From the NCBI GenBank assembly GCA_028554795.2, contig CM068830.1, forward strand, positions 109,877,214 through 109,941,213: a DNA stretch of 64,000 nucleotides. The letters run 5' to 3'. The position numbers and the translations under genes were made by a program. This document shows, in pieces, positions 9,777 to 63,009 of this stretch. The notes under the pieces were generated by a model that ran no database searches, was not told where the DNA came from, and worked only from the letters and a program-made list of their open reading frames with translations. This DNA is from Sinohyriopsis cumingii (Eukaryota; Mollusca; Bivalvia; Unionida; Unionidae). Numbering within the stretch: the stretch's first letter is position 1; every line of letters begins with the position of its first letter.

Positions 9777-9818
9777 AGCCATTTTCAGGGCTACCCAATA
9801 CTCTAGAAAAGAAATAAC
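9777..9818 (+). terminator. Histone-type 3' stem-loop after arm gene 1
   Basis: The hairpin AGCCATTTTCAGGGCT (one mismatch in a 6-bp stem, 4-nt loop) is followed at once by ACCCA. AGAAAAGAAATAAC begins 8 bases further on. This order is that of replication-dependent histone mRNAs: stem-loop, ACCCA, then a purine-rich element that pairs with U7 snRNA. It lies 31 bases after the stop codon, a spacing usual for histone genes. Inference: the transcript is cut here without polyadenylation. Confidence 0.7.
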
Positions 9819-10082
9819 AATCGATTTGCCAATGTGTGTAGGTAGAGCAGTGTGAATATAAACACTGGCTCTTTTTTTCTAGTGTGAGTGCATGTGTTTG
9901 TAAGTGCTCACATACGTTGGTGTGGATAGTAGATTAAGATAATTTTATTTTTTTTGGTGTTTGAGGTGTTGGGAGAGTAGATTTGGGGTTTGATTGATCT
10001 GAGTATGTGAATAGTATATTGAAGTGATTAATGACAATTTTTATTTTAGAATAGGAATGGGTAGTATAAAAAAAAGTGAGTG
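9819..10082 (+). other. Arm spacer with conserved TATAAACAC box
   Basis: A non-coding spacer. A TATAAACACTGGCTC block (9,858-9,871) followed by a T run recurs after the hairpin of nearly every arm unit (10,646; 58,470; 59,923; minus strand near 62,050 and 62,920). A GTGGATAGTAGATT phrase with the GCTCACATACG/GCTCACGTACG neighbour also repeats. The TATA-like block could drive the next arm gene with a long leader or a non-coding RNA. No ORF is evident. Confidence 0.45.
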
Positions 10083-10187
10083 AGTGTTTCTTTTAGGTCC
10101 GCGCGTTGTTTGGTTATGATCTAGGTAAGATAAATTTTATATTTTTTAGGGGGATGTTTTCCTTCACGTCCGCGCTTTTAGTATAAA
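10083..10187 (+). promoter_or_regulatory. Paired arm promoter elements and TATA, arm gene 2
   Basis: Two copies of the GTCCGCGC core lie about 70 bases apart (10,083-10,105 with TTTAGGTCCGCGCG; 10,154-10,178 with TTCCTTCACGTCCGCGC). They are followed by GTATAAA at 10,181-10,187 and the ATG at 10,238. Copy A4 shows the same pair at 62,572-62,596 and 62,651-62,671 on the minus strand. The fixed geometry argues for a specific activator site. Confidence 0.6.
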
Positions 10188-10237
10188 TTGAAACTCGCTG
10201 GGCAGTCTAGCTACCCTGTTCATTCGTTGACAAAACA

Positions 10238-10537
10238 ATGAATACCAGAATTGTGAAACTGCTAGAACTCCAGATGCACCTGGAATATGCCAGGCGCATA
10301 CTAAATGAACTGGCCGCGGAGGCCATTGTCGAAGAGGCAAGGATGAAAGAGGAGGAGGAAAGAAGAAAAAAAGAAGGGGAGGAAAAGGAGAGAGAAAATT
10401 TCAGAATCCCAGAGACAGAAAATTGGGATTCTGAAGCCACTTATCCCGCCTCTGCACTCCCAAGAAGAAAGGTAAAAAGAGACTGGGGAGAAGATGTGTG
10501 TGCGGTGCCAGGCCTGGAAGGTGCCATCATTAGATAG
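10238..10537 (+). CDS. Arm gene 2: charged coiled-coil protein
   Basis: An intact frame of 99 aa. The N-terminal helix LLELQMHLEYARRILNELAA leads into a long Glu/Lys/Arg run (coiled coil or single alpha-helix), then a conserved FRIPETENWDSEATYP segment and a C-terminal tail. The copy A4 homologue (62,161-62,511, minus) keeps the first and last parts but has extra tandem EEEERRYK-type units in the charged run. Two decayed relatives lie in A3 (58,741-58,960; 59,304-59,812). The N-terminal helix resembles the start of arm genes 1 and 3 in pattern, so the three may be distant paralogues. Function is unknown. Confidence 0.65.
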   Translation: MNTRIVKLLELQMHLEYARRILNELAAEAIVEEARMKEEEERRKKEGEEKERENFRIPETENWDSEATYPASALPRRKVKRDWGEDVCAVPGLEGAIIR

Positions 10538-10564
10538 GTGCATCTGGAGTTAAAAAAAACAAAC

Positions 10565-10606
10565 AGCTCTTTTCAGGGCTACCCAATACTCTAGAAAAGA
10601 AATAAC
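10565..10606 (+). terminator. Histone-type 3' stem-loop after arm gene 2
   Basis: AGCTCTTTTCAGGGCT forms a 6-bp stem (one G-U pair) with a UUUC loop. ACCCA follows directly and AGAAAAGAAATAAC begins 7 bases later. It lies 28 bases after the stop codon. Confidence 0.72.
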
Positions 10607-10956
10607 AATCGATTTGCCAATGTGTGTGTATGTAGAGTAGTGAGAATATAAACACTGACTCTTTTTTTCCTAGTGTGAGGGTATGTGTTTGAGTTTGTGT
10701 GTTTGTGTTTGTGTGTTTGTGTTTGTAAGCGCTCACGTACGTTTGTGTGAATAGTAGATTATGGGTTTGTTTATTGTTTGTTAGCGTATGTGGAGAGTAT
10801 AGTTAGGGTTTTGTAACCGCTCACGTACGATTGTGTGGATAGTAGATTATGGATTTAGTTTTAATGATTTGCGTGTGTAAATAGTAGATTTGGGGTTTGT
10901 TTATTGCTGATTCACATATGTGGATAGTAGATCATATGAAATGAGAAAAGCAGGGG
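10607..10956 (+). repeat. Arm spacer with degenerate ~65-bp repeats
   Basis: Non-coding and GT-rich. A unit of the form CGCTCACGTACG-TTGTGTGGATAGTAGATTATGG-TTTG is repeated about three to four times (around 10,728, 10,815, 10,875 and 10,915). The same unit occurs in the other arms, including 60,365-60,620. The regular GTGGATAGTAGAT phrase and the palindromic ACGTACG/ACGTACGT core suggest protein-binding or replication-related repeats. No ORF is supported. Confidence 0.5.
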
Positions 10957-11059
10957 ATGTTTTCCTTCACGTCCGCGCGTTGTTTGGTTATGATCTAGGT
11001 ATTATCAATTTTATGTCTTAGGAGGATGTTTTCCATCACGTCCGCGCTTTCACTATAAG
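10957..11059 (+). promoter_or_regulatory. Paired arm promoter elements and TATA, arm gene 3
   Basis: Two CACGTCCGCGC cores (10,957-10,978 and 11,025-11,050) are followed by TATAAG at 11,054-11,059 and the ATG at 11,100. A TGATCTAGGTA phrase lies between the two cores here, in arm gene 2 and in copy A4. The mirrored copy is at 61,661-61,756 on the minus strand. Confidence 0.6.
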
Positions 11060-11099
11060 AACCCACAGTATTCGTCGTTCAAACTATTCTACAGAGAAG

Positions 11100-11438
11100 A
11101 TGGCTTCAAACCACCTCGATAAAATGCAAACATTGCAAGACGTCCTGGACAATTTGGGCATGATGGAACAAATGCTAGTGAGACTAAATGAAGATCACTA
11201 TTCTTATAGCCCCCATCGAGTAAAGATGGAGATTAACAACTTAAGAAAAGTAAAGGAAATGATAAGTGCTGTGATGAAAGAAATAAAGGAGGAGAAGGAG
11301 GATGAAGGGGAAAGGATAAGAATAAGTACATGGAAGGAAAAAATTGAAAAAGAAGAAGAAAATGAGAAGGGGAAGAAAGAAGAGGAGGAGAAGAAGAAAG
11401 AAGAGAAAAAAAGGAAGAAAAGAAGAGAAAGAGTGTAG
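11100..11438 (+). CDS. Arm gene 3: charged coiled-coil protein
   Basis: An intact frame of 112 aa. A helical N-terminal half (TLQDVLDNLGMMEQMLVRLN, then INNLRKVKEMISAVMKEI) is followed by an almost pure Glu/Lys/Arg tail ending RKKRRERV. The gene at the same place in copy A4 (61,006-61,609, minus) shares only the helical pattern, although the promoters and hairpins around both are nearly identical. The coding part has therefore diverged or been exchanged. The antisense strand also shows long open frames here, but these are complements of the GAA/AAG-rich tail. Function is unknown. Confidence 0.6.
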   Translation: MASNHLDKMQTLQDVLDNLGMMEQMLVRLNEDHYSYSPHRVKMEINNLRKVKEMISAVMKEIKEEKEDEGERIRISTWKEKIEKEEENEKGKKEEEEKKKEEKKRKKRRERV

Positions 11439-11589: not shown

Positions 11590-12115
11590 TTTAAATCTCA
11601 TGTTAAATTTCCCATTGTCGCTATATAGTCCCACCCTGTTTAAATTCCCTTGACGCTATACAGTCCCATATTCCCATGTTCAATTCCCCTTGTCGCTCAA
11701 CAGTCCCACGATTTTTTCTCCATGTTAATTTCCCTTGTCGCTAAACAATCCCACGATTTTTCTCCATGTTAAATTTACATAGTCGCTAAACTGTCCCGGG
11801 GGGGGGGGTCTGTAATGCTATTTCCCATTGTCGCTGAATCGTCCCCTTTCACTACTATTGTCGCTAGGCAGTCCCAATCCATTGTCACTCTACATCCCTG
11901 TGTTTAATTCCCCATGTCCCTATATAGACCCAATCCATACAATTTCCCTTGTCTGTATACAGACCCAACCTATGTTAAATTCCCATTGTCCCTAGAGTGG
12001 ATATAACATTCCCCATGCTAAATTCCCATTGTCGCTATTTTTATAGACCCCTTTTTAACAGTACGTCCCCCATTGTCCCTCATGTGGCCCACATTACTAT
12101 TAATAGTCTTTGTGA
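11590..12115 (+). repeat. Subterminal minisatellite of family A (about 50-60 bp unit)
   Basis: About ten degenerate copies of a unit of the form CATGTTAAATTCCC-TTGTCGCTA-ACAGTCCC. A C/G run lies at about 11,797-11,808. Copy A4 ends in a related array at 60,640-60,905 (read on the minus strand: CATGTTCAATTCCCCTTGAGGC and CCCACGATTTTTCTC), so the array belongs to the element end. It holds no ORF. Confidence 0.65.
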
Positions 12116-12560
12116 TCAACCGTCGTTGCACAACCTTTGACCTATTGTCAGCAATCCTATTATCAAATACCCGAATACCATTATTTTAACTCTGAAATGT
12201 ACCCAAATGTATGAAGACATTAGCGGTTCATCGCCACAGCTGCTAATTGCAAAATTCTTAAAATTAAAATTAAATATACATCAGAACGTTCTAGTACAGA
12301 TATTATTTGTTGAGGAGGCATTTAATGCCCTGCAATAACTAGTATTTTTTTTAAAAAAAAAAAACAGCAATAAATTAAATAGAGTTTAGATTTTTTAGCA
12401 ATCTGTGCTTAATTCAATCAAAATTATATTTTCTGCGAATACATATTCTTCCTGAAAACTGTTAATGCATGTTAATTAAATGCTGATATTTGATATAAAC
12501 ATACATCATTTCATTATATTGTACATTTTTCGTATCATTTATTTGTATCACCTTTGCCAA

Positions 12561-22294: not shown

Positions 22295-22643
22295 AGCAGC
22301 AGGGAGGGCGGGCAGACTTTTTAGCTATTTTCAGACAAAAACCATCATTTTTCGGGGGGGGGGGGGTATCTCAATATTGTAACCTCCGAGATAGAAAAAT
22401 AATCCTCGGCAGGGAAGTTGTACAGACCAGACGTTCCAGACCAAATAAAGCTTCCTACGAGAACTTTCTCCGTAGAAGCCTCAGATTTCAAAAATAAGCC
22501 TTCCTACGAGAATTAATTTGCGTAAATTCGTCACCGATTGCAATTTTTTGTGTGCAAAAATCATTGATTTTGGACAGCAATTTTAGGGGGGGGGGGTAGG
22601 AGAAATTTATTCCATCGATGAAGTTTGCAAAGATTTGGCTGCC
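22295..22643 (+). repeat. Family B left terminal inverted repeat
   Basis: About 349 bases matching the complement of 36,766-37,118. It contains G-runs (about 22,354-22,367 and 22,587-22,596) and a shared internal block reading CCTACGAGAA twice in the opposite repeat sense. The last shared bases, TTTGGCTGCC, stop just before the ATPase stop codon. Confidence 0.9.
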
Positions 22644-22646
22644 TTT

Positions 22647-23297
22647 TCATGAATAAATTTGATCGAGACCGATTCGATATCTACTACGCGGATCATGAAG
22701 ATTAATCGTGATGAAACCATGCGGTATTGCCTGAGCGCGGCTGAAGAAATTTTTAAATTTGTTTATGTCCATATCGCCGTTGCACCAAGTCTGATGAATA
22801 TTTCTCAACGTGTGAGTATCGACGCCATTGAACACCGACAAAATATTACAATTGTCCCTAATTACTTTTGGAATTTGCGTATATCGCTGCGTCACGTAAA
22901 TCACATCGGTGTTCTTGTGTCGGCCACGCGAGAATATCCTAGCCGGATTAGTTTGCTTATCCAGCATAACATCATCGAATACAACAAGATTATTAACATC
23001 GCCATCTAAATTTTCCACGGATGGGGTATCATTGATGTCTGTGATGAATTCTATCGTGCCTTCGTCGGTATTGTCGCTAAATTCTTTTAGTACCTGATAG
23101 CAACGCTGATCATCAACGGACGGTGCAACCAAATACAATTTGTCCCATTTTAGCCATCGCATTATCAAATTTAGTAACAATTGCGTCTTTCCAGAACCGG
23201 ACGGGCCAATAATTATCATCCTTATCGAATTCGGTAACACCGCGTTGTGTTTCGCTTGCTCGCGTCGCTTCGTGGCCGAAAAATCAATTACATTCAT
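22647..23297 (-). CDS. Packaging ATPase (FtsK/HerA, A32-like), family B
   Basis: An intact 216-aa protein that would pump DNA into the capsid. Walker A is GPSGSGKT at residues 31-38. Walker B is the LVVFDDVM strand near residue 105, followed by the FSRGRHKNTDVIYVTQRY sensor/arginine region. Length fits the family (200-250 aa). Its C-terminus ends directly at the inner edge of the left terminal repeat. It is transcribed away from the zinc-ribbon gene at 23,312, with only 14 bases between the two start codons, so the two share a very short divergent promoter. A decayed relative is at 47,250-47,730. Confidence 0.9.
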   Translation of the reverse strand: MNVIDFSATKRREQAKHNAVLPNSIRMIIIGPSGSGKTQLLLNLIMRWLKWDKLYLVAPSVDDQRCYQVLKEFSDNTDEGTIEFITDINDTPSVENLDGDVNNLVVFDDVMLDKQTNPARIFSRGRHKNTDVIYVTQRYTQIPKVIRDNCNILSVFNGVDTHTLRNIHQTWCNGDMDINKFKNFFSRAQAIPHGFITINLHDPRSRYRIGLDQIYS

Positions 23298-23311
23298 GTT
23301 ACTAGAATATT

Positions 23312-23488
23312 ATGGATCTATATTGTGTTAAGTGTCGCACGCGCACAGCTACGATAAATCCAACCGAAATCGTCACACGCAATAACAGGAACGCAATTGC
23401 AGGAGAATGCGAAGTTTGTAAGACACGCAAATTCAGATTTGTAAAAAAAAAAATAGAAGAACCGGAGGAGACATTACCGCCTCCATGA
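23312..23488 (+). CDS. DUF5679-like zinc ribbon, 58 aa
   Basis: A small intact frame. Two CxxC knuckles (CVKC near residues 5-8, CEVC near 33-36) and a KTRKFRF strand match the DUF5679 type zinc ribbon often encoded by viruses and mobile elements. A short acidic/Pro tail follows. Its TGA overlaps the ATG of the phospholipase gene in the sequence ATGA, so the two are likely translated from one transcript. The role is unknown; nucleic-acid binding is a guess. Confidence 0.7.
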   Translation: MDLYCVKCRTRTATINPTEIVTRNNRNAIAGECEVCKTRKFRFVKKKIEEPEETLPPP

Positions 23489-23820
23489 AAAATCTACCTG
23501 GGCTGCCCTGGGCGAAATATCCCGGAGAAAAACATCTGCCAGGATACAATTACTGCGGACCTGGTACGAGGCTCGATATCAGACTCAACGATAATAATCA
23601 ACCAAATCCCGGCGAAGATCCAGTAAACGCCATCGATAACGCGTGTTACTATCACGATCTTGCGTATCGCAGCGGGGATTTACAACAAAGACATCTCGCT
23701 GATATTAGGCTAATTCATGCAATAGACGCGATTCCTGATAAAAGTTTCAAAGAAAAATTGGCAACTTGGTTGATAAAAGGCGCAATGAAAGGTAAATTAG
23801 TATTCGGTGCTGGTAAATAA
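23485..23820 (+). CDS. Parvovirus-type phospholipase A2 protein
   Basis: An intact 111-aa protein. The opening GLPWAKYPGEKHLPGYNYCG is the same as in parvovirus VP1 unique regions. The calcium loop YCGPGT is at residues 23-28 and the catalytic pair His57-Asp58 lies in ACYYHDLAY. A second helix (ADIRLIHAID) follows, then a basic, amphipathic end. In parvoviruses this enzyme opens endosomal membranes during entry; here it is a stand-alone protein, as seen in some adintoviruses/Polintons. It overlaps the zinc-ribbon gene by 4 bases and is separated from the integrase by 2 bases. Confidence 0.9.
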   Translation: MKNLPGLPWAKYPGEKHLPGYNYCGPGTRLDIRLNDNNQPNPGEDPVNAIDNACYYHDLAYRSGDLQQRHLADIRLIHAIDAIPDKSFKEKLATWLIKGAMKGKLVFGAGK

Positions 23821-23822
23821 TA

Positions 23823-24773
23823 ATGGAGCAGATATATTATTCTCCGCGAGGATTCTGGCGAGGAAAATCAGCAATTGCCAAACTCGCCAAGGCAGCAAAA
23901 GTAAAACAATCCACCGCTGAATCGTGGCTATCGAAACAGGCAGTCTGGCAAATTTATCTTCCTCCACCTAAGAAAATATCATATGCGAGTTTCTCTGTCA
24001 GCGTCCCTAATGAAGTCCATCAGGCTGATTTAATGTTTCTTCCTTACGATACCGTCGACGGAGTCACATACAAGTATGTGTTGACGGTTGTTGATATCGC
24101 TAGCAGATACAAGGAAGCAGAACCGTTATCGAATAAAACAGCAACGGAGATCGCTAAGGCGTTTAGCGAAATTTATTCACGATCTCCATTAACATGGCCG
24201 AAGCTTCTCCAGGTTGATCCAGGTCGAGAATTTCTTGGCGCGGTTACTTCATTGATGAAAAAGAATAATGTTAAAATCCGTCGCGGTATTGTAGGTGTTC
24301 ATCACAATCAAGCTATCGTTGAGAGATTCAATAAAACGCTTGCAGAACGATTATTCGGATACCAGTACGCGCGTGAATTTATTCAGGATAATCGATCTCA
24401 TGATTGGGTATCGAGGTTGCCTCATGTGATTAACGCACTAAATAACGAGACAACGAGAACAATAGCAATGAAACCCGCAATTGCGATTACAAAACCGAAT
24501 ATACCCCTAAAGCGAGGTTCCACAATTCCGCCTGTGCTAGGTAGCGTCACGGTCCGGTATTTATATAAAGAAGGCGAGGCCGAAGGAGGAAGAAAAAGAG
24601 CAACTGATCCAAATTGGAGCGTTACAACACACAAAATATCAGCCGTAACAAGATCATCGGGAAGACCGGCAATTTATTTCCTAGATTCACTAGCGCCACA
24701 ACGCGGATTTACCAAGGAGGAATTACAAATAATACCGAAAGATACTCAACTACCGCCAGCGTCATTAATGTGA
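23823..24773 (+). CDS. Polinton integrase, family B (no chromodomain)
   Basis: An intact 316-aa DDE integrase. The N-terminal helical domain (IAKLAKAAKVKQSTAESWLS) is followed by the core with Asp near residue 69 (QADLMF), Asp near 131 (LQVDPGREF) and Glu near 167 (QAIVERFNKT), with about 35 residues between the last two. The C-terminal SH3-like part (VTVRYLYKEG, then YFLDSLA) ends without a chromodomain. Its last 28 bases overlap the end of the PolB-helicase gene on the other strand. Confidence 0.93.
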   Translation: MEQIYYSPRGFWRGKSAIAKLAKAAKVKQSTAESWLSKQAVWQIYLPPPKKISYASFSVSVPNEVHQADLMFLPYDTVDGVTYKYVLTVVDIASRYKEAEPLSNKTATEIAKAFSEIYSRSPLTWPKLLQVDPGREFLGAVTSLMKKNNVKIRRGIVGVHHNQAIVERFNKTLAERLFGYQYAREFIQDNRSHDWVSRLPHVINALNNETTRTIAMKPAIAITKPNIPLKRGSTIPPVLGSVTVRYLYKEGEAEGGRKRATDPNWSVTTHKISAVTRSSGRPAIYFLDSLAPQRGFTKEELQIIPKDTQLPPASLM

Positions 24774-27718
24774 AACCGAATTCTACCTAACTGAGATAAT
24801 TTTCTTACTCTCGACACGGCTAAATAAACTAAATTTGACCAGGAAATTCTATCATCGACGATACAAACTTGGCCATCCACGGTTAATCCCTGCGATGAAT
24901 GTATCGTTGTTGCGTAGCCTAGTTTCCATGGTGATCTTTCTGCGTTTATCGCGTCATTGACAAGATTAATATCAACAAGAATAATATCATTCAGTACCAA
25001 GATCTTTTCCTCTCCGCAGGGTAAAGTAACACTAATATTTTGTTTCCTGGTATCAGCGGGCCTGTAACACAACGGCACCTGCAATGTTGGAAATTTCTCG
25101 CAATGAAGCTTGAATAACATTTCCTGAATAACATCACGAACAATTTTCCTACTAGCAACAATCAGATGATCGGGACGCCACAAATTTAGAAAAATATCCA
25201 TTGGAGTCTCGTCGATTATTTTTCTCATCACATCGCATTGAAATTTATTCGGTTGTAATCGAATTATTTTCTTAAATTCAGTCAGTAAAATATCATCGGA
25301 TCTATAATCAGCGTCGATTTCCTCATAATAGTCAACGAAATTCCTGAGCCATTCGTGAGGAGATTCACCATCAATCGGATCAGGCTGGCCATGATCTCCG
25401 CACATTACCACGGCGGTATTTTTTTCCTCCAGCCAGATCAGGAATGATTTTAATACAACTAAATTTACTGTGCAAATTTCATCAAATATTATAATTTTAT
25501 TGATATATTTATTTCCCATACGAGCCGAATCCCACAATCCACCGCTGTATTTGAAATAACTATGATAAGTACCAGAATCAACGCCGCGTTGTCTTATTTC
25601 TCGCGCTAATCTGTGAGTTGGAGTCAGCACTATCATATCAGATTTCGCAAATAAATTTATCGCTCGCGTTGTTTTACCGCTACCACCAGGTCCATTCATG
25701 TAAACGAATTTGTTACGTGAAATCGGGTCAAATGCGGATGCAGCCGTCGATATTTCCTCGCATTTATCTCGATGAAATTTATCGCAATCTTCGACATCGG
25801 CGTCCTCACAATAATCTAGAATATCCTCGTTTTTTATCCTCCAAGTGCCCCAAGAGCCGTCGGAGATTAAATTTTCTAGCCTATGCTGATATTTCTTATC
25901 GATATAAAACGAGTCCGTTGCGACCCTTACCGCGATATCAGAAAATTTATTTATCATCGACAGTAAATTTATGCTCACATAAGCTAGCATCGAAGACCTC
26001 AAATGCGTATACTGCGCTGATTCTCCGTCGAGATAGCTAATTACGGTACCCAACTTTACTCCGTCAATGATAATATTCTCTCTGTTGCAGAATATTCCTC
26101 GCGATACCGTATCGGCAATAATAAAATCCATTTCGGCATCGTTGATAAACAACCTAGCGTGTCGGTGTTTATGATCAACGGATCCCCCTTGAGTAAATTT
26201 TCCAATTATTTTTCTTCCAATATCCTTCGCGTTTTCACAGTCCGTCGGTAGCCACACCTTAGTTTGTTTTCTATACGATATAATTGCCTCGCTCACTGTC
26301 AACGATACTAACATTGACGAATCTAGCATATACCTCAACAACACTATAGGGACCCATCTGCGTTGAGAGAAATGCCGACCAAACCAAATATAACAAATTT
26401 TATGTAAATTTTCAGCAAACTCAAATGAAGTTACATAAGCGAATCCGGTCATAACAAAATCTGGCAACGGTCCGTTAATTGCCACTCTCGTCATCTCGCT
26501 GGTGGGATGGCCAAATTTAGCAAAATAATCCGCACAATCGCCGTATCCTAGGAAACTTCCAGGATAGCACGCGCTCATATCAACGGATATCATATCTTCG
26601 AAATAATATTTGGTATTCCACAATCCGCCATGGCCGTACTCGATACAACTAAGTTGAATATCAGCGAGGTATTCGTTCCTTGTAGGTTTCCACGAATTTC
26701 TTTCTCTGGCAGCGTGAGCAGCAACAGACGGAACCGTAAAACAATTTGTCAGTAACTGATCAGGATTTGACGAATATTTCACCGCGATATTTTTCATCGA
26801 TTCATGCAATTTTTCATCACGGTAAATATCTCCTCGAGGCAAGATAAACTGATCATATTTTTCTTCACTCGAGAATAACCAAACTGATATCGGATCAGAT
26901 GCGGCTAATATTTTGATATATCGGAACATAGCATCAGAATTATCCTTTGCGCCTTCCACAGGATAAAATTTAACAACCCGATCTCGCGGGAATATCATTA
27001 CCGACTGCGACCACGCATGTGAATTATGATCAACAATCTCGATTGGTACTCCTCGAGATCTATATGGCGACGAATATAATATTTCTCCCGATAGTGTTTT
27101 CACCGTGATAGGAAATTTAAGTTTCTTGCTCAACACAGCAACATCGTCAATCGATGCGCCATCAACAACTGTCTTCGCCCACGCGTTAATTTTATCCAAC
27201 CTCAACTGAGTCAATCCAGATCCACGACGAGCGTTTTTCATGTGCTCGATAACACGCTCGGCAACGCAATTTATCATCGGTGATTCTTTCATCGCAGGTA
27301 GCTTTTTCACATCCGGGTTGTTATTTAGCCGATAAATTCCATAGACAACAGCGCTAGAAGGATACGCCCTGGCATAATAAGGACCATCGATTCCCAATAA
27401 TAATCCTGGCTTCGAATTTTTATCAAGAACGACGTTTTTCTTACCGCCACGCACGGGATCTCGTTTATCGCGAATAATCCAAGTGTCGTCAGGCATTTGT
27501 GCAATAAATTTTATTCCAAAGATAAATCGTTCTTCCTTATGTTCGGATTTTATATGCTCGATTATCTTCTTGGCCCGTTCCAGATTCATCGTAGCATCAA
27601 TAGTGTTAGTTTTCCATGTCGACCAAACATGAATCGCTCCATCATCGAAGAATTCCTTCTTGGCACGATCAACCTCAGGTATAATATATTCTGCCTCATC
27701 AAGATCAAATGTATCCAT
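24746..27718 (-). CDS. PolB-type DNA polymerase fused to SF1 helicase
   Basis: An intact 990-aa protein. The first ~330 residues are poorly conserved. PolB motif A is visible at about residue 376 (DMISVDMSACYPGSF), with a thumb/motif B region (QYTHLRSSMLAYVSINLLSM) and motif C near 600 (VRVATDSFYI). A linker with Cys/Asp leads to a superfamily 1 helicase at ~675-990. It has Walker A GPGGSGKT, Walker B IIIFDEIC, motif III VVMCGDHGQPDP and the C-terminal TIHSSQGLTVDGQV and LAVSRVRKL. This would copy the element and unwind DNA in one chain. Classic Polinton PolB lacks the helicase. Similar fusions occur in other animal and fungal genomes as I recall; the exonuclease domain is not evident. Confidence 0.85.
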   Translation of the reverse strand: MDTFDLDEAEYIIPEVDRAKKEFFDDGAIHVWSTWKTNTIDATMNLERAKKIIEHIKSEHKEERFIFGIKFIAQMPDDTWIIRDKRDPVRGGKKNVVLDKNSKPGLLLGIDGPYYARAYPSSAVVYGIYRLNNNPDVKKLPAMKESPMINCVAERVIEHMKNARRGSGLTQLRLDKINAWAKTVVDGASIDDVAVLSKKLKFPITVKTLSGEILYSSPYRSRGVPIEIVDHNSHAWSQSVMIFPRDRVVKFYPVEGAKDNSDAMFRYIKILAASDPISVWLFSSEEKYDQFILPRGDIYRDEKLHESMKNIAVKYSSNPDQLLTNCFTVPSVAAHAARERNSWKPTRNEYLADIQLSCIEYGHGGLWNTKYYFEDMISVDMSACYPGSFLGYGDCADYFAKFGHPTSEMTRVAINGPLPDFVMTGFAYVTSFEFAENLHKICYIWFGRHFSQRRWVPIVLLRYMLDSSMLVSLTVSEAIISYRKQTKVWLPTDCENAKDIGRKIIGKFTQGGSVDHKHRHARLFINDAEMDFIIADTVSRGIFCNRENIIIDGVKLGTVISYLDGESAQYTHLRSSMLAYVSINLLSMINKFSDIAVRVATDSFYIDKKYQHRLENLISDGSWGTWRIKNEDILDYCEDADVEDCDKFHRDKCEEISTAASAFDPISRNKFVYMNGPGGSGKTTRAINLFAKSDMIVLTPTHRLAREIRQRGVDSGTYHSYFKYSGGLWDSARMGNKYINKIIIFDEICTVNLVVLKSFLIWLEEKNTAVVMCGDHGQPDPIDGESPHEWLRNFVDYYEEIDADYRSDDILLTEFKKIIRLQPNKFQCDVMRKIIDETPMDIFLNLWRPDHLIVASRKIVRDVIQEMLFKLHCEKFPTLQVPLCYRPADTRKQNISVTLPCGEEKILVLNDIILVDINLVNDAINAERSPWKLGYATTIHSSQGLTVDGQVCIVDDRISWSNLVYLAVSRVRKLSQLGRIRFHINDAGGS

Positions 27719-27751
27719 TATTATATTTTAGACAAATGTTTAAATTATATA

Positions 27752-28039
27752 ATGCAATGCAAATGGATACCAATCGGATCAACAAAATCATGCGACAAAT
27801 CCTGCAGAGGCGAATATTGTGGCGCTCATATATATGCAATTCGACGAGGCAGTAAAGGACCACAACGGTGTTTAGTTTGCCAAGTTGGCACGCGAGGAAA
27901 GACTCGATTGTGTTTATCCTGTGGAGGGAAAAATTATCGGGAATTGCTCAGATATTACAAAAAGAAATCTTCCTTGGTGATAACATGCGAAGAGGATTAC
28001 ATTAATCGATTCAAGGCAAATTATGATTTAGACAGATAA
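27752..28039 (+). CDS. Cys-rich zinc-binding protein, 95 aa
   Basis: An intact frame. Start 27,752 is chosen because it is the first ATG after the divergent PolB start (27,718) and opens right at the Cys-rich part; an upstream extension would run antisense through the polymerase gene. Paired cysteines occur as CDKSC, CRGEYC, CLVC and CLSC, giving two likely zinc sites, followed by a basic helix (YRELLRYYKKK) and a short tail. The function is not recognised. It may be a small regulator or DNA-binding protein, and it leads a three-gene + strand cluster. Confidence 0.6.
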   Translation: MQCKWIPIGSTKSCDKSCRGEYCGAHIYAIRRGSKGPQRCLVCQVGTRGKTRLCLSCGGKNYRELLRYYKKKSSLVITCEEDYINRFKANYDLDR

Positions 28040-28049
28040 TTATTATATA

Positions 28050-28610
28050 ATGGAAATGAAATCAACGATTCCTGCAATGAAAATCACGCACGAGTATAAA
28101 TCTCATCCTACGATCATGGGATACGAGGCATCATCGGATGGTACCGTCAGACATATCAGAACGAAGAATCTTGTTGGTAGAGTTGATAACAGTGGATATC
28201 TTAAATTTTCAGTCGGCGAGAATAAAAAAATGAGAAAAATGAGTTATTACAATCACAGGTTTGTATACGAGTGCTATCACGGACCAATAGAGATTGGCCT
28301 TGTTATCGATCACATCGACGGAAACAAACTCAATAATAAACTATCCAATCTACGCGCAGTGTCTCAGAGTGAAAATTTAAGATCCGGCAATACCGGCGGC
28401 GCACGATCAGCTAAGGCCGTCAAATCGATAAATCAGGCAACAGGCGAGGAGATGATATTCGAATCGATGAGCGCCGCTGCGAAATATTATAAAATTAATT
28501 CAGCATCGGTACGACATGCAGCAGAAAAAAAATACAGGGCGACGTTTTCATATGACCTCGGTGAATGGATCGAATTTTACTATATCCCAATAATATTCGA
28601 CGAAGAATAA
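28050..28610 (+). CDS. HNH homing-type endonuclease with NUMOD domains
   Basis: An intact 186-aa protein. A NUMOD4-like N-terminal part (YKSHPTIMGYEASSDGTVRH) is followed by the HNH nuclease core HRFVYECYHG, then VIDHIDGNKLNN-LSNLR at about residues 69-105. A NUMOD1-like helix-turn-helix (VKSINQATGEEMIFESMSAA) lies near 125-160. These proteins are usually free-standing or intron homing endonucleases of phages and giant viruses that cut specific DNA and spread by repair. It starts 10 bases after the previous stop. Confidence 0.88.
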   Translation: MEMKSTIPAMKITHEYKSHPTIMGYEASSDGTVRHIRTKNLVGRVDNSGYLKFSVGENKKMRKMSYYNHRFVYECYHGPIEIGLVIDHIDGNKLNNKLSNLRAVSQSENLRSGNTGGARSAKAVKSINQATGEEMIFESMSAAAKYYKINSASVRHAAEKKYRATFSYDLGEWIEFYYIPIIFDEE

Positions 28611-28635
28611 TTGAATATTACAAAATTAATATAAC

Positions 28636-29013
28636 ATGAATGAACAAACCATAAGCAATATTATCGAAGCCATCGATGACCTGAGAAAAAAAAATATAAA
28701 TCTTCCATCGGAGTTGGACACGAATAAAATCCGATCCGAATTCGAGGCGATTGTTCAGGGGAAACTTGAATACAAATACACGCTACCATCCGAATACAAA
28801 TTAATAAAGAAAATTCAGATTGCGATGTATCAATCACTTGCGACAGTCAGCGATGATCGCATCGAGGATTTTGTTAAATTATCGACGCTAGTGGAGAAAG
28901 CTAGATTGATTTTATCAGAAGCATACGAATCAAAAAAAATTACAAGCTCGCGCATCAGACAACTGAAAAAACTTGTCGAAGAGAGCAAGGCCAAGGAAAT
29001 TTCTGATCCTTGA
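28636..29013 (+). CDS. Family B unknown helical protein, 125 aa
   Basis: An intact frame, almost all alpha-helical by eye: IIEAIDDLRKKNINLPSELD, then KLIKKIQIAMYQSLA and KARLILSEAYESKK. It has no Cys, no membrane segment and a charged C-terminal coiled-coil region. It is the last gene of the + strand cluster and converges on the virion block at about 29,050. I do not recognise it. Confidence 0.55.
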   Translation: MNEQTISNIIEAIDDLRKKNINLPSELDTNKIRSEFEAIVQGKLEYKYTLPSEYKLIKKIQIAMYQSLATVSDDRIEDFVKLSTLVEKARLILSEAYESKKITSSRIRQLKKLVEESKAKEISDP

Positions 29014-29135
29014 ATCTTCCTGAAGAAATTCCACAAAAAAACAAAAATTAAAAAAATATATTAATTTTGAAAATTTCCCTGGATTTTATTTATTTTTTTG
29101 GCCCATTTTTCCCTGGCAGACAGATTCGAAGATTC
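29014..29135. terminator. Convergent AT-rich terminator region
   Basis: Between converging genes. A and T runs on both strands, with ATTTTATTTATTTTTTTGG on + and AAAATTAAAAAAATATA nearby, could serve as poly(A)/termination signals for both clusters. No strict AATAAA is present on the + strand side. Confidence 0.4.
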
Positions 29136-30500
29136 TCACGATCTTACCAGCAGATTGATACTTAATGTTTCTCCGCGGATATCAAGCAAATTTCCGTCTT
29201 GATTCGTTAGTTTGAAATTTATTCTTGATAATAATCGATTGTGGCATCGCAGATAAAACGGATTTACTGGCTCTTTTATTATCAAATAACCCGGAGAGAC
29301 GTTAGGTGAAAACGAATACAAGATAAATCCCTGCTGCGCCTGATTTGACTCTGACGAATCAACATTGTAGCTGCCTTCGACAACATCCGCGTGAAGATAA
29401 ATCGCGATAACTTCTGTTATATTAACGATACCAGGTGAAATATGCCGTCCTTGCCCCACTCCGTCGTTGTTATGCTGCAAAATCGATTCTGCTTGTAATT
29501 TTTTCTTAGTCCACGCATCGTGTAATTTAGTAAATAACTTATCAGTGGTATCAGTGACAAATTTTCTCATTTCATTAACGTTATAACCAGGAAATTTGTA
29601 ACTTAGCAGTGTCCTCTCGGTTAAGTTATGTCTTTGCATGAATGCCGTAATAATATAACCAATACCAAAAACAGCGCTGTTTTGTATATTTTCCGTCGCT
29701 AGGTTGTTAATGAGTTCCATATCAGCGGCTAATTTATTTATTCGCTCTACTGTTATGGTAATTTCGTTACATGAAGTTTGCACGTTAAATATGCACTCCT
29801 GGAAAAAATGATCTAATAATTTTTTTTGTTTCTCGTATTCGTTAATAATTTCACCAAACAATAATTTGATACCATCCTCGAACAAATCCAGCATATACAC
29901 AGAACCTGAAGAAAAATCGAGGCTTTCTTTCATTTTTTCATATTTATCGATGTAGTCCAAGTTGATTCCGTGATAGTTTTTTTCATTGCTGATAAAATCT
30001 TCTTTTTTTGGTTCTGGCGTTATTATCTCCCCGGGTGGAATTTCAGGCCAACCCAATACGGTCCTAATCGACGAATGATAAATATCTACCATGTAAGGTG
30101 ATGATACCTCGATGATCGACGATAGTGTTGGTTCATGTGAGGATATCTTTATTCCTGGAGTAGCATCGCCGGTTATATTTGATATCCTGCTGGTAAATTC
30201 CTTATCCAGCTGCTCAATTTCGTAACTGCCTGTTGGTATACTAACAGTGAACCAATCGGGAGATCCATCGGCGCGTTTTTTATTAGCGATAACAAGTGAA
30301 TTGTTTGACAATAATTTACCAAATGATTTTGATCTGATATTAGGCCAGCTGTTGTAGACACGCAGCTGCGTTAACGCAATTTCTTTGACGCTGATTGGTG
30401 TTGGAAAATTAATGCTAAATTCAGGTTTGGTGGAGCTTAACGATATTAGTGTTGTTGTCGGCGGTGTCGTGTTTGTCACGATCTGAGCTAGTTCGGACAT
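29136..30500 (-). CDS. Penton-like minor capsid protein, family B
   Basis: An intact 454-aa protein. The N-terminal ~190 residues carry the pattern seen in Polinton capsid accessory proteins: a strand ISLSSTKPEFSINFPTPISV, ALTQLRVYNSWPNI, then IPTGSYEIEQLDKEF and a SSPYMVDIYHSSIRTVLGWP strand. A long helical middle (about residues 190-340) and a beta-rich C-terminus follow. I read it as the penton/minor capsid counterpart from this N-terminal beta pattern and its place in the virion block. Sequence similarity to the family A protein at 5,329-6,253 is only general. Its start overlaps the next gene by 80 bases in another frame. Confidence 0.55.
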   Translation of the reverse strand: MSELAQIVTNTTPPTTTLISLSSTKPEFSINFPTPISVKEIALTQLRVYNSWPNIRSKSFGKLLSNNSLVIANKKRADGSPDWFTVSIPTGSYEIEQLDKEFTSRISNITGDATPGIKISSHEPTLSSIIEVSSPYMVDIYHSSIRTVLGWPEIPPGEIITPEPKKEDFISNEKNYHGINLDYIDKYEKMKESLDFSSGSVYMLDLFEDGIKLLFGEIINEYEKQKKLLDHFFQECIFNVQTSCNEITITVERINKLAADMELINNLATENIQNSAVFGIGYIITAFMQRHNLTERTLLSYKFPGYNVNEMRKFVTDTTDKLFTKLHDAWTKKKLQAESILQHNNDGVGQGRHISPGIVNITEVIAIYLHADVVEGSYNVDSSESNQAQQGFILYSFSPNVSPGYLIIKEPVNPFYLRCHNRLLSRINFKLTNQDGNLLDIRGETLSINLLVRS

Positions 30501-30945
30501 TATTAATATTCATTTGTTCAATCTCCGAGTAAATACTGATCATTGCCGAAAATTCTGGATCGGAGATAACGCCATCGTTGAGACTCTCGGAAAGCAGCGA
30601 TGTTAATTTCGAATACGCGTCGTTGACCTTGGATAGTTTATTCTTGTACAACGATAATTTCTCACTCGTGCACGAGGATATCTTTTTCGCTACGATATTG
30701 AGAACACCAGCGATTGTTGTTGTTGACGAGATTATTATCGTTGCTACGATCGGCGCGATTGTTGTTACCGCGGATAAAATTATTACAGCACCAGCGACTA
30801 TCGCGGATACCGTGTACACGGCGACGTCAATGATAACTAATCTACGCTGGTATTTTTTTATTTTTATCTGATACTCGTCTAGTAGTTTTTTTAGCGAATC
30901 CTGCCATGATCGCGCCTGATTGTAACGGTAGTCAGATGCGGTCAT
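30421..30945 (-). CDS. Membrane protein with two helices between coiled coils
   Basis: An intact 174-aa protein. A charged N-terminal helix (SLKKLLDEYQIKIKKYQRR) precedes two adjacent hydrophobic segments (VIIDVAVYTVSAIVAGAVII and IAPIVATIIISSTTTIAGV). A second coiled-coil region (LSLYKNKLSKVNDAYSKLT) and an Asp/Asn-rich tail follow. A hairpin membrane anchor beside the penton-like and fiber-like genes suggests a virion or entry protein, but that is inference. Confidence 0.6.
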   Translation of the reverse strand: MTASDYRYNQARSWQDSLKKLLDEYQIKIKKYQRRLVIIDVAVYTVSAIVAGAVIILSAVTTIAPIVATIIISSTTTIAGVLNIVAKKISSCTSEKLSLYKNKLSKVNDAYSKLTSLLSESLNDGVISDPEFSAMISIYSEIEQMNINNVRTSSDRDKHDTADNNTNIVKLHQT

Positions 30946-30968
30946 TTATTAGTATCTTACGATAACAA

Positions 30969-32640: not shown

Positions 32641-32693
32641 AAATACACCTCTGAAAAATTTAATTTTTTTTTTCTTTGCTTCGTTGATTAGAT

Positions 32694-33143: not shown

Positions 33144-33176
33144 ATTAATAACCGCTTAATCTAAATTTAGAATTTG

Positions 33177-34595: not shown

Positions 34596-34610
34596 TTATT
34601 ATTAAGAATA

Positions 34611-35084: not shown

Positions 35085-35104
35085 GTTATTTCAATTGTGT
35101 TGTT

Positions 35105-58382: not shown

Positions 58383-58422
58383 AGCACTTTTCAGGGCTAC
58401 CCAATTCTTTAGAAAAGACATA
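58383..58422 (+). terminator. Histone-type 3' stem-loop after A3 arm gene 1
   Basis: AGCACTTTTCAGGGCT (one stem mismatch), ACCCA at once, then AGAAAAGACATAG. The three parts persist even though the gene is decayed. Confidence 0.6.
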
Positions 58423-58740
58423 GTCTAATAGCAAAATTTTGTATTTGTAGTTTAAAAAATGGACGTGTGTCTATAAACACGTCGTTTCTTTGTTTAATGT
58501 ATAAAAAGTGTGCCTATCAACACGTTGTTTTTCTGTGTTGTCAGATAGTGTGTATGTGTTTGTAAGTAAAAAAAAAGTCAACGTGAGTGTTTCGTTTAGT
58601 TCTGCGCGTTCCATGTGATGGATAGTAATGTGGATCTTGTAGGTTTTGGTGTCAAGGGATGGTTTCCTTCAAATCCGCGCTTCACAATATAAAACGAAAG
58701 CATTCGTCACTCTGGCTACCCAGCGTTGACTAGTCAACTG
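58423..58740 (+). promoter_or_regulatory. A3 arm spacer and promoter for arm gene 2 fossil
   Basis: TATAAACACG (58,470) and a second TATCAACACG, a TTCTGCGCG element at about 58,595, then TTCCTTCAAATCCGCGC (58,663-58,680) and TATAAAA (58,688). The layout is that of A1, with substitutions. Confidence 0.5.
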
Positions 58741-59000: not shown

Positions 59001-59303
59001 ACACAGCCACTACAAATACTTCGTTCTGTTGTTTTATATCAAAGAAAAAGAAGTGTGCCTATCAACACTTCGTTATTTCTGTCTAGTCAGATATTGTATG
59101 CATGTGTTTGTACGTAAAAAAGTCAATGTGAGTGTTTATTTTAGGTCCACGCTTTCCATGTTTTTTTTTTTTTTTTTTGGTGATGATATGGGTATTGTAC
59201 GTTTTGGTTAATGTGAGGTTTTCCTTCACGTCCGCGCTTCAGAGATATAAACAGAGAGCTCATTCATCTGGCTACCCATCGTTGACTTGTCAACTGCAAA
59301 AAA
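59001..59303 (+). promoter_or_regulatory. A3 arm spacer and promoter, second unit
   Basis: A TTAGGTCCACGC element (about 59,143), a T run, then TTCCTTCACGTCCGCGC (59,222-59,238) and ATATAAAC (59,245). Same paired layout as elsewhere. Confidence 0.5.
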
Positions 59304-59840: not shown

Positions 59841-59885
59841 AGCCCTTCTCAGGGTTAACCAGATTTCTAGAAAAGAGACTATTCT
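59841..59885 (+). terminator. Histone-type 3' stem-loop after second A3 arm unit
   Basis: AGCCCTTCTCAGGGTT (6-bp stem with a G-U pair, loop TCTC), then AACCA in place of ACCCA, then AGAAAAGAGACTATTC. Confidence 0.55.
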
Positions 59886-60016: not shown

Positions 60017-60310
60017 CAATTTTTCAGTCATATCGCTGCGATGTCTGCAATGTGGCAGTTTATAGTGATGTCTAGCACTGGGGCATCATGGCATAGACAA
60101 TTTGCATGATGTTCCACCCAGTCACATTATCCTGACACCGGGCTGACCAGTCCTAACACCAACCTCTTAATACTGAGCACCAAGCGAGGCAGCTGTTAGT
60201 ACCATTTTTATAAGTCTTTAGTATGACTCGGCTGGGATCGAACCCACGCCCTTCCGCATCTGAGGCGGATGCTCTAACCACTAAGCCACCGGAGCGGTTC
60301 ACTCCATTAC
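60017..60310 (-). repeat. tRNA-headed SINE (second type)
   Basis: On the minus strand from about 60,305: a head with GGTGGCTTAGTGGTTAGAGC (A box) and GGTTCGATCCC (B box) and an anticodon-like CTCAGATGCGG, then a long conserved body read through 60,017. It fits the V-SINE-like SINEs common in molluscs. It is not a functional tRNA gene because the acceptor stem does not close. Target duplications are not clear because CA/GT runs surround it. Confidence 0.65.
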
Positions 60311-60639
60311 TGGCATGTGTGTGTGTGTGTGTGTGTGAGTGTGTGTGTTTGAGAGTATTTGTATGCGTTCACGTACGTTTGTGTGTTGATAGTAGATATC
60401 GGGTTTGTATGTGTTCGCTTACGTATGTGGATATTATATAATGTTTTTCCCCTTCCCTTCTGTTTGGATAGTAAATATTGGTGTGGATAGTATATAATGT
60501 TTTTTTTCCTTCCCTTTTGTGTGGATACTCGGTATTGGTGTGGATAGGATATAATGGTTTTCTCTCCCCCTTCTGTGTGGATACTAAATATTGGGGGTGT
60601 TTATTTTCCCCTTCCTTTATGTGTGGATAATAGTAGTGA
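60311..60639. repeat. GT-rich spacer and ~62-bp repeats at the A3/A4 junction
   Basis: (GT)n at about 60,317-60,350, then a TTCACGTACGTTTGTGTG phrase. Tandem units of the type TGTGTGGATACT-TATTGGTGTGGATAG-TATATAATG-TTTTCCTTCCC follow (60,420-60,620). These are the arm spacer repeats seen at 10,728-10,930. A3 and A4 meet tail to tail here. Confidence 0.5.
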
Positions 60640-60905
60640 ATAGGGTCACTTTAGCCTCAATGGGAATTAGCATTACAGAGACCCTGGGTCGTTTTAGCCT
60701 CAATGGAAATTTATCATGGAGAAAAATCGTGGGTCGTTTTAGCCTCAAGGGAAATTTAACATGGGAAACAGTCTTGGGTCGTTTTAGCCTCAAGGGGAAT
60801 TGAACATGGAGAAAAATCGTGGGTCACTTTAGCCTCAAGGGGAATTGAACATGGTCGAATAAAGTGTGGGTCTATTTAGGGACAAGGGGGAATTGAACAT
60901 GTGAT
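60640..60905 (-). repeat. Subterminal minisatellite of copy A4
   Basis: About five units reading on + GGGTCGTTTTAGCCTCAAGG then GGAATTGAACATGG, period about 57 bases. Counterpart of 11,590-12,115; copy number and unit sequence differ between the two ends. Confidence 0.7.
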
Positions 60906-60941: not shown

Positions 60942-60984
60942 GTCATTCTCTTTTCGAGAAATATGGGTGGCCCTGAAAAGGGCC
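60942..60984 (-). terminator. Histone-type 3' stem-loop after A4 arm gene 3 (perfect)
   Basis: On the minus strand GGCCCTTTTCAGGGCC (60,969-60,984) then ACCCA (60,964-60,968) and TCTCGAAAAGAGAATGAC. All three parts match the metazoan histone 3' end layout exactly. Confidence 0.8.
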
Positions 60985-61660: not shown

Positions 61661-61756
61661 AGCGCGGACGTGATGGAAAACATCCCCCAAAAACATAAAA
61701 TTGATCTTGCCTAGATCATGACCAAACATCGCGCGGACGTGAAAGAAAACATCCCC
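61661..61756 (-). promoter_or_regulatory. Paired arm promoter elements, A4 arm gene 3
   Basis: GCGCGGACGTG (complement of CACGTCCGCGC) at 61,661-61,686 and 61,730-61,756, with a TATAAG on the minus strand at about 61,652 between the promoter and the ATG at 61,609. Mirrors 10,957-11,059. Confidence 0.6.
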
Positions 61757-62085
61757 TACTTTTCTCATTTCATGTAATATACTATCCACATAAGTGAAGC
61801 AACATTTAACAAACCCCAAATCTACTATTTACACACGCTAATCATTAAAACTAAATCCATAATCTACTATCCACACAATCGTACGTGAGCCGTTACATAA
61901 CCCTAACTATACTCTCCACATACGCTAAGAAACAATAAAGAAACCCATAATCTACTATTCACACAAACTTACGTGAACCGTTACAAACACAATCACTAAC
62001 ACACAAACACATACACTCGCACTATTAAAAAAGAGTTAGTGTTTAAATTCACACTACTCTACCTACACACATTGGCAAATTGATC
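61757..62085 (-). repeat. A4 arm spacer repeats
   Basis: The complement of the 10,607-10,956 spacer: ACTATCCACA-type and CGTACGTGAGC-type phrases repeated about four times. No ORF. Confidence 0.5.
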
Positions 62086-62127
62086 GTTATTTCTTTTCTA
62101 GAGTATTGGGTAGCCCTGAAAAGGGCT
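62086..62127 (-). terminator. Histone-type 3' stem-loop after A4 arm gene 2
   Basis: On the minus strand AGCCCTTTTCAGGGCT (62,112-62,127, perfect 6-bp stem, UUUC loop), ACCCA (62,107-62,111), then AGAAAAGAAATAAC. Confidence 0.75.
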
Positions 62128-62160
62128 GTTTTTTTTGTTTGGAACTTCATGGACACCTGG

Positions 62161-62511
62161 TTAATGGTGGCAACTTCCAGGCCTGGCGCCACATACACAC
62201 CTTGTTCCCCAGTTGCTTTTTACTTTTTTGGGGGAGAGAGCAGAGGCAGGATATGTGGCTTCAGAATCCCAATTTTCGCTCTCTGGGATTCTGAAATTTC
62301 TTCTTCTTCTCTCCTTTTCCTCCTCTTCTTTGTATCTTCTCTCCTCCTCTTCTTTGTATCTTCTCTCCTCTTCTTCTTTGTTTCTTCTTTCCTCCTCCTC
62401 TCTCATCCTTCCCTCTTCCACAATGGCCTCCGCGGCCAGTTCGTTCAACAGGCGCCTGGCATATTCCAGATGTACATGAAGATCCAACAGTTTCGTCAGT
62501 CTCGTGTTCAT
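62161..62511 (-). CDS. Arm gene 2 of copy A4
   Basis: An intact frame of 116 aa from the ATG at 62,511, which matches the A1 start; an extra in-frame ATG lies at 62,526. N-terminus HLEYARRLLNELAAEAIVEE and C-terminal segment FRIPESENWDSEATYPASAL are shared with A1 10,238-10,537. The Glu/Arg run between them is longer through tandem EEEERRYK-type units. The last ~20 residues differ (WGTRCVCGARPGSCHH). Function unknown. Confidence 0.65.
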   Translation of the reverse strand: MNTRLTKLLDLHVHLEYARRLLNELAAEAIVEEGRMREEEERRNKEEEERRYKEEEERRYKEEEEKERRRRNFRIPESENWDSEATYPASALSPKKVKSNWGTRCVCGARPGSCHH

Positions 62512-62571
62512 TCTGGTGTTGATCAATCAACAAGGGTAGCTGGACTGCCGAACGAGTTTCAATTTATACTA

Positions 62572-62671
62572 AAAGTGCGGACGTGAAGGAAAACATCCCC
62601 CTTAAAATACATAAAATTGATCTTACCTAGATCATGACCAAAAAAACAACGCGCGGACCTAAAAGAAACAC
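62572..62671 (-). promoter_or_regulatory. Paired arm promoter elements, A4 arm gene 2
   Basis: GTGCGGACGTGAAGG at 62,572-62,596 and GCGCGGACCTAAAAG at 62,651-62,671. The minus-strand TATAAA is at about 62,564. Mirrors 10,083-10,187. Confidence 0.6.
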
Positions 62672-62960
62672 TCACTCACTTTTTATACTGCTCATCACTA
62701 TTCTAAAAAAATTTTCATCAATCACTTCAATAGACTATCCACATACGCAAAGCAATCCAATCCAGCCCCCAAATCTACTCTCCCCACACCTCAAACAGCC
62801 AAAAAAACAAAAAACAAACATCATATTAATCTACTATCCACACCAACTTACGTGAGCACTTACAAACACACAATCTTATACACAAACACATACCCTCACA
62901 TTTTTTTAAAAAAGAGTTAGTGTTTATATTCACACTACTCTGCCTACACACATTGGCAAA
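62672..62960 (-). other. A4 arm spacer
   Basis: Complement of 9,819-10,082: ACTATCCACACC, GTGAGCACTTAC and a TATA-like block at about 62,920. No ORF. Confidence 0.45.
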
Positions 62961-62967
62961 TTGATGG

Positions 62968-63009
62968 TTATTTCTTTTCTAGAGTATTGGGGTAGCCCTG
63001 AAAAGGGCT
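62968..63009 (-). terminator. Histone-type 3' stem-loop after A4 arm gene 1
   Basis: On the minus strand AGCCCTTTTCAGGGCT (62,994-63,009, perfect stem), then ACCCC(A) and AGAAAAGAAATAACC. The A1 counterpart at 9,777 has one mismatch in the stem. Confidence 0.72.

Follow-up and report, generated by a model that had tools for sequence, protein, structure and literature searches.

Histone-type control signals on the small arm genes of a Polinton family in the Sinohyriopsis cumingii genome

A stretch of 64,000 nucleotides of Sinohyriopsis cumingii contig CM068830.1 (the window) contains arms, designated A1, A3 and A4, of a Polinton, here called element A. The small arm genes of this Polinton family probably use the pathway by which the host expresses its replication-dependent histone genes. 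To judge from their sequences, all five arm gene types (g1 to g5) carry the 3' signals of host histone genes, and three of them, the right-arm types g1 to g3, also carry host histone promoter blocks. The mobile element thus appears to use the host's histone-gene control cassette for genes that do not encode histones. Histone mRNAs are bound by the stem-loop binding protein SLBP, are cleaved about 5 nt past the stem under the guidance of U7, carry no poly(A) and accumulate in S phase. An earlier note on the window had proposed that the 3' signals could tie the arm genes to S phase; as far as the signals go, the sequences support its interpretation, which the promoter finding extends, and functional use of the signals is likely.

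In sister copies of the element the left arm contains g5, directed outward, and g4, directed inward. The core genes follow and then the right arm, with g1, g2 and g3 in tandem. Neither g4 nor g5 was found in the window (tblastn, E up to 0.1). Judged by its hairpins, A4 is the best preserved copy; A1 and A3 represent the same arms in a more decayed state. Blocks that A1 and A4 have in common in inverted orientation are 73-96% alike.

The eight hairpins that the earlier note had placed 3' of the small arm genes are all present at those positions and strands, in the sense orientation. It had counted three perfect 6-bp stems with a UUUC loop; there are four (A1 g3, A4 g1, A4 g2 and A4 g3). Stems with a single G-U pair do occur in A1 (g2) and A3 (g2) as it had said, but the A3 g2 loop is UCUC. 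Two further stems (A1 g1 and A3 g1) have one mismatch. ACCCA, described as following most stems at once, does so at five of the eight sites, the others having ACTCA, AACCA or ACCCC, while the purine block, of the GAAAAG type, is present downstream of all eight. With the Rfam histone stem-loop model RF00032, two of the eight sites (40.8 and 36.2 bits) pass the gathering score of 34. The matches at A3 g2 and A1 g1 are seen only when the search is restricted to stretches of the window (E ~0.2). No match occurs elsewhere in the window at E up to 10. A descriptor that catches seven of the eight hairpins finds none in 60 simulated 64-kb sequences. In the six arm open reading frames (ORFs) of A1 and A4 (the A4 g3 frame is broken and A3 lies outside this measurement) the distance from stop codon to stem is 21-59 nt, and in all six AATAAA and ATTAAA are absent from the 250 nt past the stop.

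The signals and genes of the window are as follows, with strand in brackets (HDE, histone downstream element).

3811..4266 (+): A1 integrase fragment (rve, Pfam), a core gene without the signal
9308..9332 (+): A1 g1 promoter block, H1/H2B type, GGGATGTTTTCCTTCACGTCCGCGC, from block comparison with the host
9386..9745 (+): A1 g1 ORF, 119 aa, non-histone, 9 homologues
9777..9792 (+): A1 g1 stem-loop, one mismatch, then ACCCA; RF00032 16.4 bits
9802..9813 (+): A1 g1 HDE-like block, TCTAGAAAAGAA; a host counterpart exists
10087..10107 (+): A1 block equal to the host H4 promoter, 21/21, from comparison with the host unit
10151..10175 (+): A1 g2 promoter block, 25-base block match
10238..10537 (+): A1 g2 ORF, 99 aa; g2 has at least 157 matches in the genome
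10565..10580 (+): A1 g2 stem-loop, one G-U; RF00032 25.4 bits
10590..10601 (+): A1 g2 HDE-like block, TCTAGAAAAGAA
10954..10978 (+): A1 g3 upstream promoter block, 25-base block match
11023..11047 (+): A1 g3 promoter block; 11025-11048 equals the host H2B promoter, 24/24
11100..11438 (+): A1 g3 ORF, 112 aa
11498..11513 (+): A1 g3 stem-loop, perfect 6 bp, UUUC; RF00032 36.2 bits
11523..11534 (+): A1 g3 HDE-like block, TCTCGAAAAGAG
58383..58398 (+): A3 g1 stem-loop, one mismatch, after a decayed g1 ORF; RF00032 21.7 bits
58408..58419 (+): A3 g1 HDE-like block, TTTAGAAAAGAC
59213..59237 (+): A3 g2 promoter block, 25-base block match
59841..59856 (+): A3 g2 stem-loop, one G-U, UCUC loop; RF00032 17.7 bits
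59866..59877 (+): A3 g2 HDE-like block, TCTAGAAAAGAG
60948..60959 (-): A4 g3 HDE-like block, TCTCGAAAAGAG
60969..60984 (-): A4 g3 stem-loop, perfect; RF00032 40.8 bits
61006..61609 (-): A4 g3 gene, broken reading frame
61661..61686 (-): A4 g3 promoter block; host H2B 24/24, host H1 25/26
62091..62102 (-): A4 g2 HDE-like block, TCTAGAAAAGAA
62112..62127 (-): A4 g2 stem-loop, perfect; RF00032 31.0 bits
62161..62511 (-): A4 g2 ORF, 116 aa
62575..62599 (-): A4 g2 promoter block, 25-base block match
62648-62668 (-): A4 host-H4-type block, 21/21
62972..62983 (-): A4 g1 HDE-like block, TCTAGAAAAGAA
62994..63009 (-): A4 g1 stem-loop, perfect; RF00032 29.3 bits
63048..63419 (-): A4 g1 ORF, 123 aa
63486..63510 (-): A4 g1 promoter block, 25-base block match

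It might be supposed that the hairpins are signals at the level of DNA, for replication or packaging, and resemble histone hairpins by chance, and their location, in arms that lie near the ends of the element, would suit such a role. This explanation has next to no chance of being correct: the hairpins are in the sense of the gene and lie just past its stop codon, the spacer and the purine block follow them as far from the stem as in the host, and the chance expectation is nil.

The promoter blocks lie upstream of the arm genes. A 25-base block has ten matches in the window (three mismatches at most), all in the arms, with none expected. It is identical to the host H2B promoter at 24 of 24 positions (window 11,025-11,048 and 61,661-61,684) and agrees with the host H1 promoter at 25 of 26; a second block (10,087-10,107 and 62,648-62,668) equals the host H4 promoter over 21 of 21. 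In 30 simulated units the 25-mer never matches with fewer than nine mismatches, against one observed. The core GTCCGCGC, which the host H1, H2B and H4 promoters have in common and which is a candidate histone promoter element of the host, occurs ten times in the window, always in the arms, for an expectation of 0.46. No such block was found at host H3. Genome-wide, the promoter 24-mer occurs 6,015 times, host H2B copies included, and its reversed control not at all.

These blocks bear on a second explanation, namely that the 3' ends do work (through SLBP and U7, without poly(A)) and that the benefit is not S-phase timing but short mRNAs without introns, able to escape host shut-off or control that acts through poly(A). 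The genes are indeed small and tightly packed, every one of them ending in a short 3' module, and the g4/g5 intergenic stretch tested has no histone promoter block. However, g1 to g3 bear promoter blocks of the H2B, H1 and H4 types, which 3'-end economy alone would not need, and we consider this explanation unlikely.

The host histone genes provide a direct standard for the 3' signals. In the 2.9-Gb genome they are arranged in units about 8.3 kb long, repeated in tandem (8.27-8.29 kb; C531, C1031, C14 and others), and 150 histone matches, a lower bound, were scored. In the host unit L039, RF00032 gives 35.0 bits for H1, 35.9 for H3, 37.7 for H4, 38.2 for H2B and 39.4 for H2A; pieces of two further arrays give the same five scores and one hairpin cut by the end of a piece (27.9). 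The earlier note had asked whether arm hairpins would score like host histone genes: those of g3 to g5 equal or exceed them, whereas those of g1 and g2 fall below. The basal pair is A-U in the g1/g2 type and G-C in the g3-g5 type, and the host H1 hairpin has U-A where the other host histone hairpins have C-G, so that pairs have been altered on both sides. The stop-to-stem distance in the host is 27-38 nt.

The purine block, which the earlier note took for a U7-pairing element, agrees with the host both in its letters and in its distance from the stem. It is CTAGAAAAGA in four of the five host genes (CCGAAAAGG in H2A) and CTAGAAAAGA, CTCGAAAAGAG or a near variant in the element. Of 72 element sites, 64 have AAAAG starting 14 nt past the stem, four have it at 15 nt and one at 16 nt, and three lack it; read from the sequence, the host values are 14 nt in three genes and 15 nt in two. 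(A scripted offset of 3 for host H4 reflects an earlier chance AAAAG and was disregarded. Four loose-descriptor matches to AGTACTTTTCAGGGTT, in L048, L053, L060 and L068, are distant from arm genes and were excluded from the 72 sites.) The A4 g3 3' block (60949-60984) and the host H2B 3' end have 32 of 36 positions identical. Capture from the histone genes of the host is the most likely origin of the signals, with H2B as the closest source for g3.

The same arrangement is found in copies elsewhere in the genome. Each of the five arm gene types has a hairpin, an ACCCA-like spacer and a U7-type block at host spacing, and element copies outside the window reach 45.6 bits. The 75 scored genome candidates, the best of 589,472, all reach the gathering score (the lowest has 34.5). 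A stem-loop scan of this genome ranks element genes ahead of histone genes: the 28 of these 75 whose own loci were fetched all show element arm context (a promoter block, an arm ORF or a paired hairpin). Twenty loci, each some 3.5 kb long and picked for one strong hairpin, were scanned with cmscan, which found these 20 hairpins and 27 extra RF00032 matches, all at arm genes or at sites of arm gene remnants. The same is true of all nine matches in 62.5 kb of larger fragments, in which core genes have none.

Full-length arm ORFs, aligned without use of a hairpin pattern, are followed by the hairpin in 47 of 49 cases (g1 9/9, g2 8/9, g3 4/5, g4 11/11, g5 15/15). In the two exceptions the L058 g2 ORF reads through its own hairpin and the L064 g3 flank is foreign. 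A strict-pattern count that includes truncated ORFs is lower (7/9, 6/8, 4/5, 10/16 and 12/15 for g1 to g5), the misses being early-stop or short ORFs, hairpins with one altered base and flanks that fail the pattern. Differences between copies in the hairpin columns are 0.056, 0.058, 0, 0.023 and 0.008 for g1 to g5, compared with 0.106, 0.124, 0.303, 0.132 and 0.252 in the remaining columns of the 130-nt 3' flank. Hairpins found by pattern give distances biased low, and the AGTACTTTTCAGGGTT matches remain inside the pattern-based identity figures for the g1/g2 type and lower them. Synonymous differences among the pattern-matched ORFs are 0.193, 0.393, 0.452, 0.087 and 0.410. The hairpin has thus been held while its neighbours changed, strongly in g3 to g5 and about twofold in g1 and g2.

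The arm genes themselves evolve under purifying selection: dN/dS (the ratio of non-synonymous to synonymous substitution rates) is 0.46, 0.21, 0.19, 0.45 and 0.12 for g1 to g5 (9, 8, 5, 17 and 15 ORFs, some truncated). This, together with the conservation of the hairpin at five genes (0-0.058, against 0.106-0.303 in the flank) and its absence from core genes in the scanned fragments, makes it very improbable that the signals are inert relics of an ancestor that acquired histone flanks and then multiplied. Such a history would nevertheless account for the near identity to the host H2B flanks, for the many decayed copies (in the window, A1 and A3) and for the conservation of the g1/g2 hairpin being only about twofold better than that of its flank.

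The element is abundant. A 20-base hairpin of the g1/g2 type (AGCCCTTTTCAGGGCTACCC) occurs 19,306 times genome-wide and one of the g3-g5 type (GGCCCTTTTCAGGGCCACCC) 13,628 times. The reversed control of each occurs zero times, and the five histone genes of the host unit L039 match neither. Among 100 listed matches of the g1/g2 type many are paired at about 800-880 bases, which is the g1-g2 distance, and this suggests some ten thousand element copies. High numbers are not unusual in bivalves: 7,091 Maverick copies, or 1.69%, are reported for Mercenaria (PMC8905726). With more than 30,000 exact hairpins set against the 150 histone matches scored, which is a minimum number, the hairpins could be imagined as decoys that titrate SLBP or U7 and so alter the histone supply of the host. 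We regard this as highly improbable, because titration requires that many copies be transcribed and because the signals are placed precisely after ORFs that are under selection at the protein level.

Several observations weigh against use of the histone pathway by the arm genes. Six of the eight window sites lie below the RF00032 gathering score (16.4-31.0 bits). The hairpins of g1 and g2 stay below it in every scored copy (32.0 at most), as they do below the host genes, and are conserved only about twofold better than their flank; in L042 both have decayed and are missed by RF00032. A(A/T)TAAA lies between -60 and +150 at 16 of the 72 element sites and in two of the five host histone genes, and the absence of a poly(A) signal after the window stops is therefore weak support. 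In L044, the single g4/g5 intergenic stretch compared, the histone promoter block is absent and these two genes have a promoter of another kind. Since loci were reached via strong hairpins, mostly of g3 and g5, the intactness of these two types is biased upward; the hairpins by which loci were selected include most of those of g5 and several of those of g3, but hardly any of those of g1, g2 and g4. Most copies of the element are probably dead or inactive.

Searches for the host machinery also belong on this side. The U7 model RF00066 gave no match in the host, an uninformative result, and the U7 pattern TCTTTTN{0,8}TTTGTCTAG has 157 matches, whereas its reversed control has more (372). One of the 157 (C13:13,576,117), perfectly complementary to the HDE over 12 nt, was rejected because it is the opposite strand of the 3' end of a decayed element copy. 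Eleven of the other 156, picked by eye among 100 listed, were read, and none has a convincing U7 3' hairpin. The SLBP model PF15247 has no match at E 0.001 and matches four pieces below the cut-off at E up to 10; two of these four were translated and are not SLBP. Nothing follows from this exon search, as introns may interrupt the domain. The host must in any case own the SLBP/U7 machinery, because its histone genes carry the same signals.

If the arm genes do follow the histone pathway, the right-arm genes would be transcribed by the same factors that activate the histone genes of the host in S phase, SLBP would bind the arm hairpin and the U7 small nuclear ribonucleoprotein would cut about 5 nt past it. 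The arm mRNAs would be intronless, without poly(A) and present mainly during DNA replication, and S phase would be the time when a DNA virus-like element can replicate. The core genes, without the signals, would presumably be expressed in ordinary polyadenylated fashion. Such expression would make the arm genes invisible to RNA-seq that selects for poly(A). On balance we also favour the wider statement that an entire class of genes of a virus-like element is expressed as histone genes are, from promoters to SLBP/U7 tails without poly(A), that host S phase would directly gate accessory genes in about ten thousand copies and that the rule confining this stem-loop to histones would be wrong.

Element A is a Polinton, its core genes having been identified by Pfam in A1 and in genomic sister copies read as separate pieces. 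These are an rve integrase (in A1, and with a Chromo match below the cut-off in L047), a family B polymerase (DNA_pol_B_2, E 5.4e-34, in L048), an A32-type ATPase (Pox_A32, E 3.2e-7, above the cut-off, in L045) and a weak match to an adenovirus-type protease (Peptidase_C5, E 0.02, below the cut-off, in L047). Among the ORFs of element A that were tried, none gave a Pfam match to a capsid gene. The arm proteins are not histones, as the earlier note had held: no Pfam histone match exists for g1 to g5, nor any other convincing Pfam match, only noise below the cut-off. The g5 protein has 76-80 aa and is arginine-rich, and that of g4 has about 190 aa. Relatives in public data number nine proteins for g1, 19 for g4 and two for g5; no relative of g1 or g4 was found in the viral contig collection, nor of g4 in the genome contig collection. 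For g1 and g4, structure prediction gives helical folds at low predicted template modelling scores (pTM 0.31 and 0.27).

Some further features of the element were recorded. About 50-65 nt past the g1/g2 stem-loops there is a second hairpin (9844-9872, 10634-10662, 58462-58483, 62032-62060 and 62913-62941) with a loop like GAATATAA, followed by a T run in A1 and A4; its stem letters vary among copies while the pairing is kept (weakly in A3 g2). Beyond g3, at 11600-12130 and 60600-60900, lie imperfect TCCCATTGTCGCTATATAGTCCC-type repeats in tandem, whose orientation in A4 is opposite to that in A1 and which are probably the terminal region of the element. Between the A3 and A4 arms, a tRNA-like match within a longer repeat (60224-60295, minus strand) is probably an inserted tRNA-derived short interspersed element. 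In the left arm, g5 and g4 form a divergent pair with a histone stem-loop on both (L044 189-1344; L049 6800-9740; L055), which recalls the divergent H2A/H2B gene pairs, and some loci have two such pairs near each other. A 687-aa open frame in L066 (489-2552, minus strand) starts near the g4 start and extends far past g4, possibly as a fusion of g4 to a core gene.

In the open-access literature, judged by title and the start of the abstract and with subscription papers outside the search, no precedent was found for a histone stem-loop on Polinton, transposon or viral genes. Histone stem-loop patterns gave no match in one search of the viral contig collection and, in another, two matches without RF00032 support, in phage-like contigs, which we take as chance. 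If expression of the arm genes by the histone pathway is true, histone mRNAs would no longer be the sole metazoan protein-coding mRNAs with this stem-loop end, and a new route would couple the genes of a DNA virus-like element to host S phase. It also provides a testable claim on non-histone targets of SLBP and U7. The mobile element appears to apply the histone cassette to other proteins in very many copies.

The arm genes resemble metazoan replication-dependent histone genes in the 6-bp stem, the 4-nt loop, the ACCCA-like spacer and the equally distant U7-type block, as well as in being single-ORF genes with promoter blocks common to host H1, H2B and H4. Unlike histone genes, they encode non-histone proteins and are dispersed in copies on a mobile element, and g1 and g2 have an A-U basal pair and lower scores. 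With Polinton/Maverick elements, to which adintoviruses are related, element A shares the family B polymerase, the integrase with a weak chromodomain match, the A32-type ATPase, the weak adenovirus-type protease match and arm accessory genes. Accessory genes are described for vertebrate Mavericks in a paper whose main text does not contain the word histone (PMC8097293). The window also contains a separate Polinton-like element (22357-37058) with 203-bp terminal inverted repeats that match at 100% and with genes for an A32 ATPase, an rve integrase, a double jelly-roll capsid, an AAA_30/AAA_19 helicase-like protein and an HNH endonuclease; unlike element A, it has none of these histone signals. 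Another animal DNA virus group that touches histone biology is that of the adomaviruses, whose Histoid is described as a histone-like protein gene (PMC11071296). There the protein is histone-like, whereas in element A the control signals are histone-like and the proteins are not.

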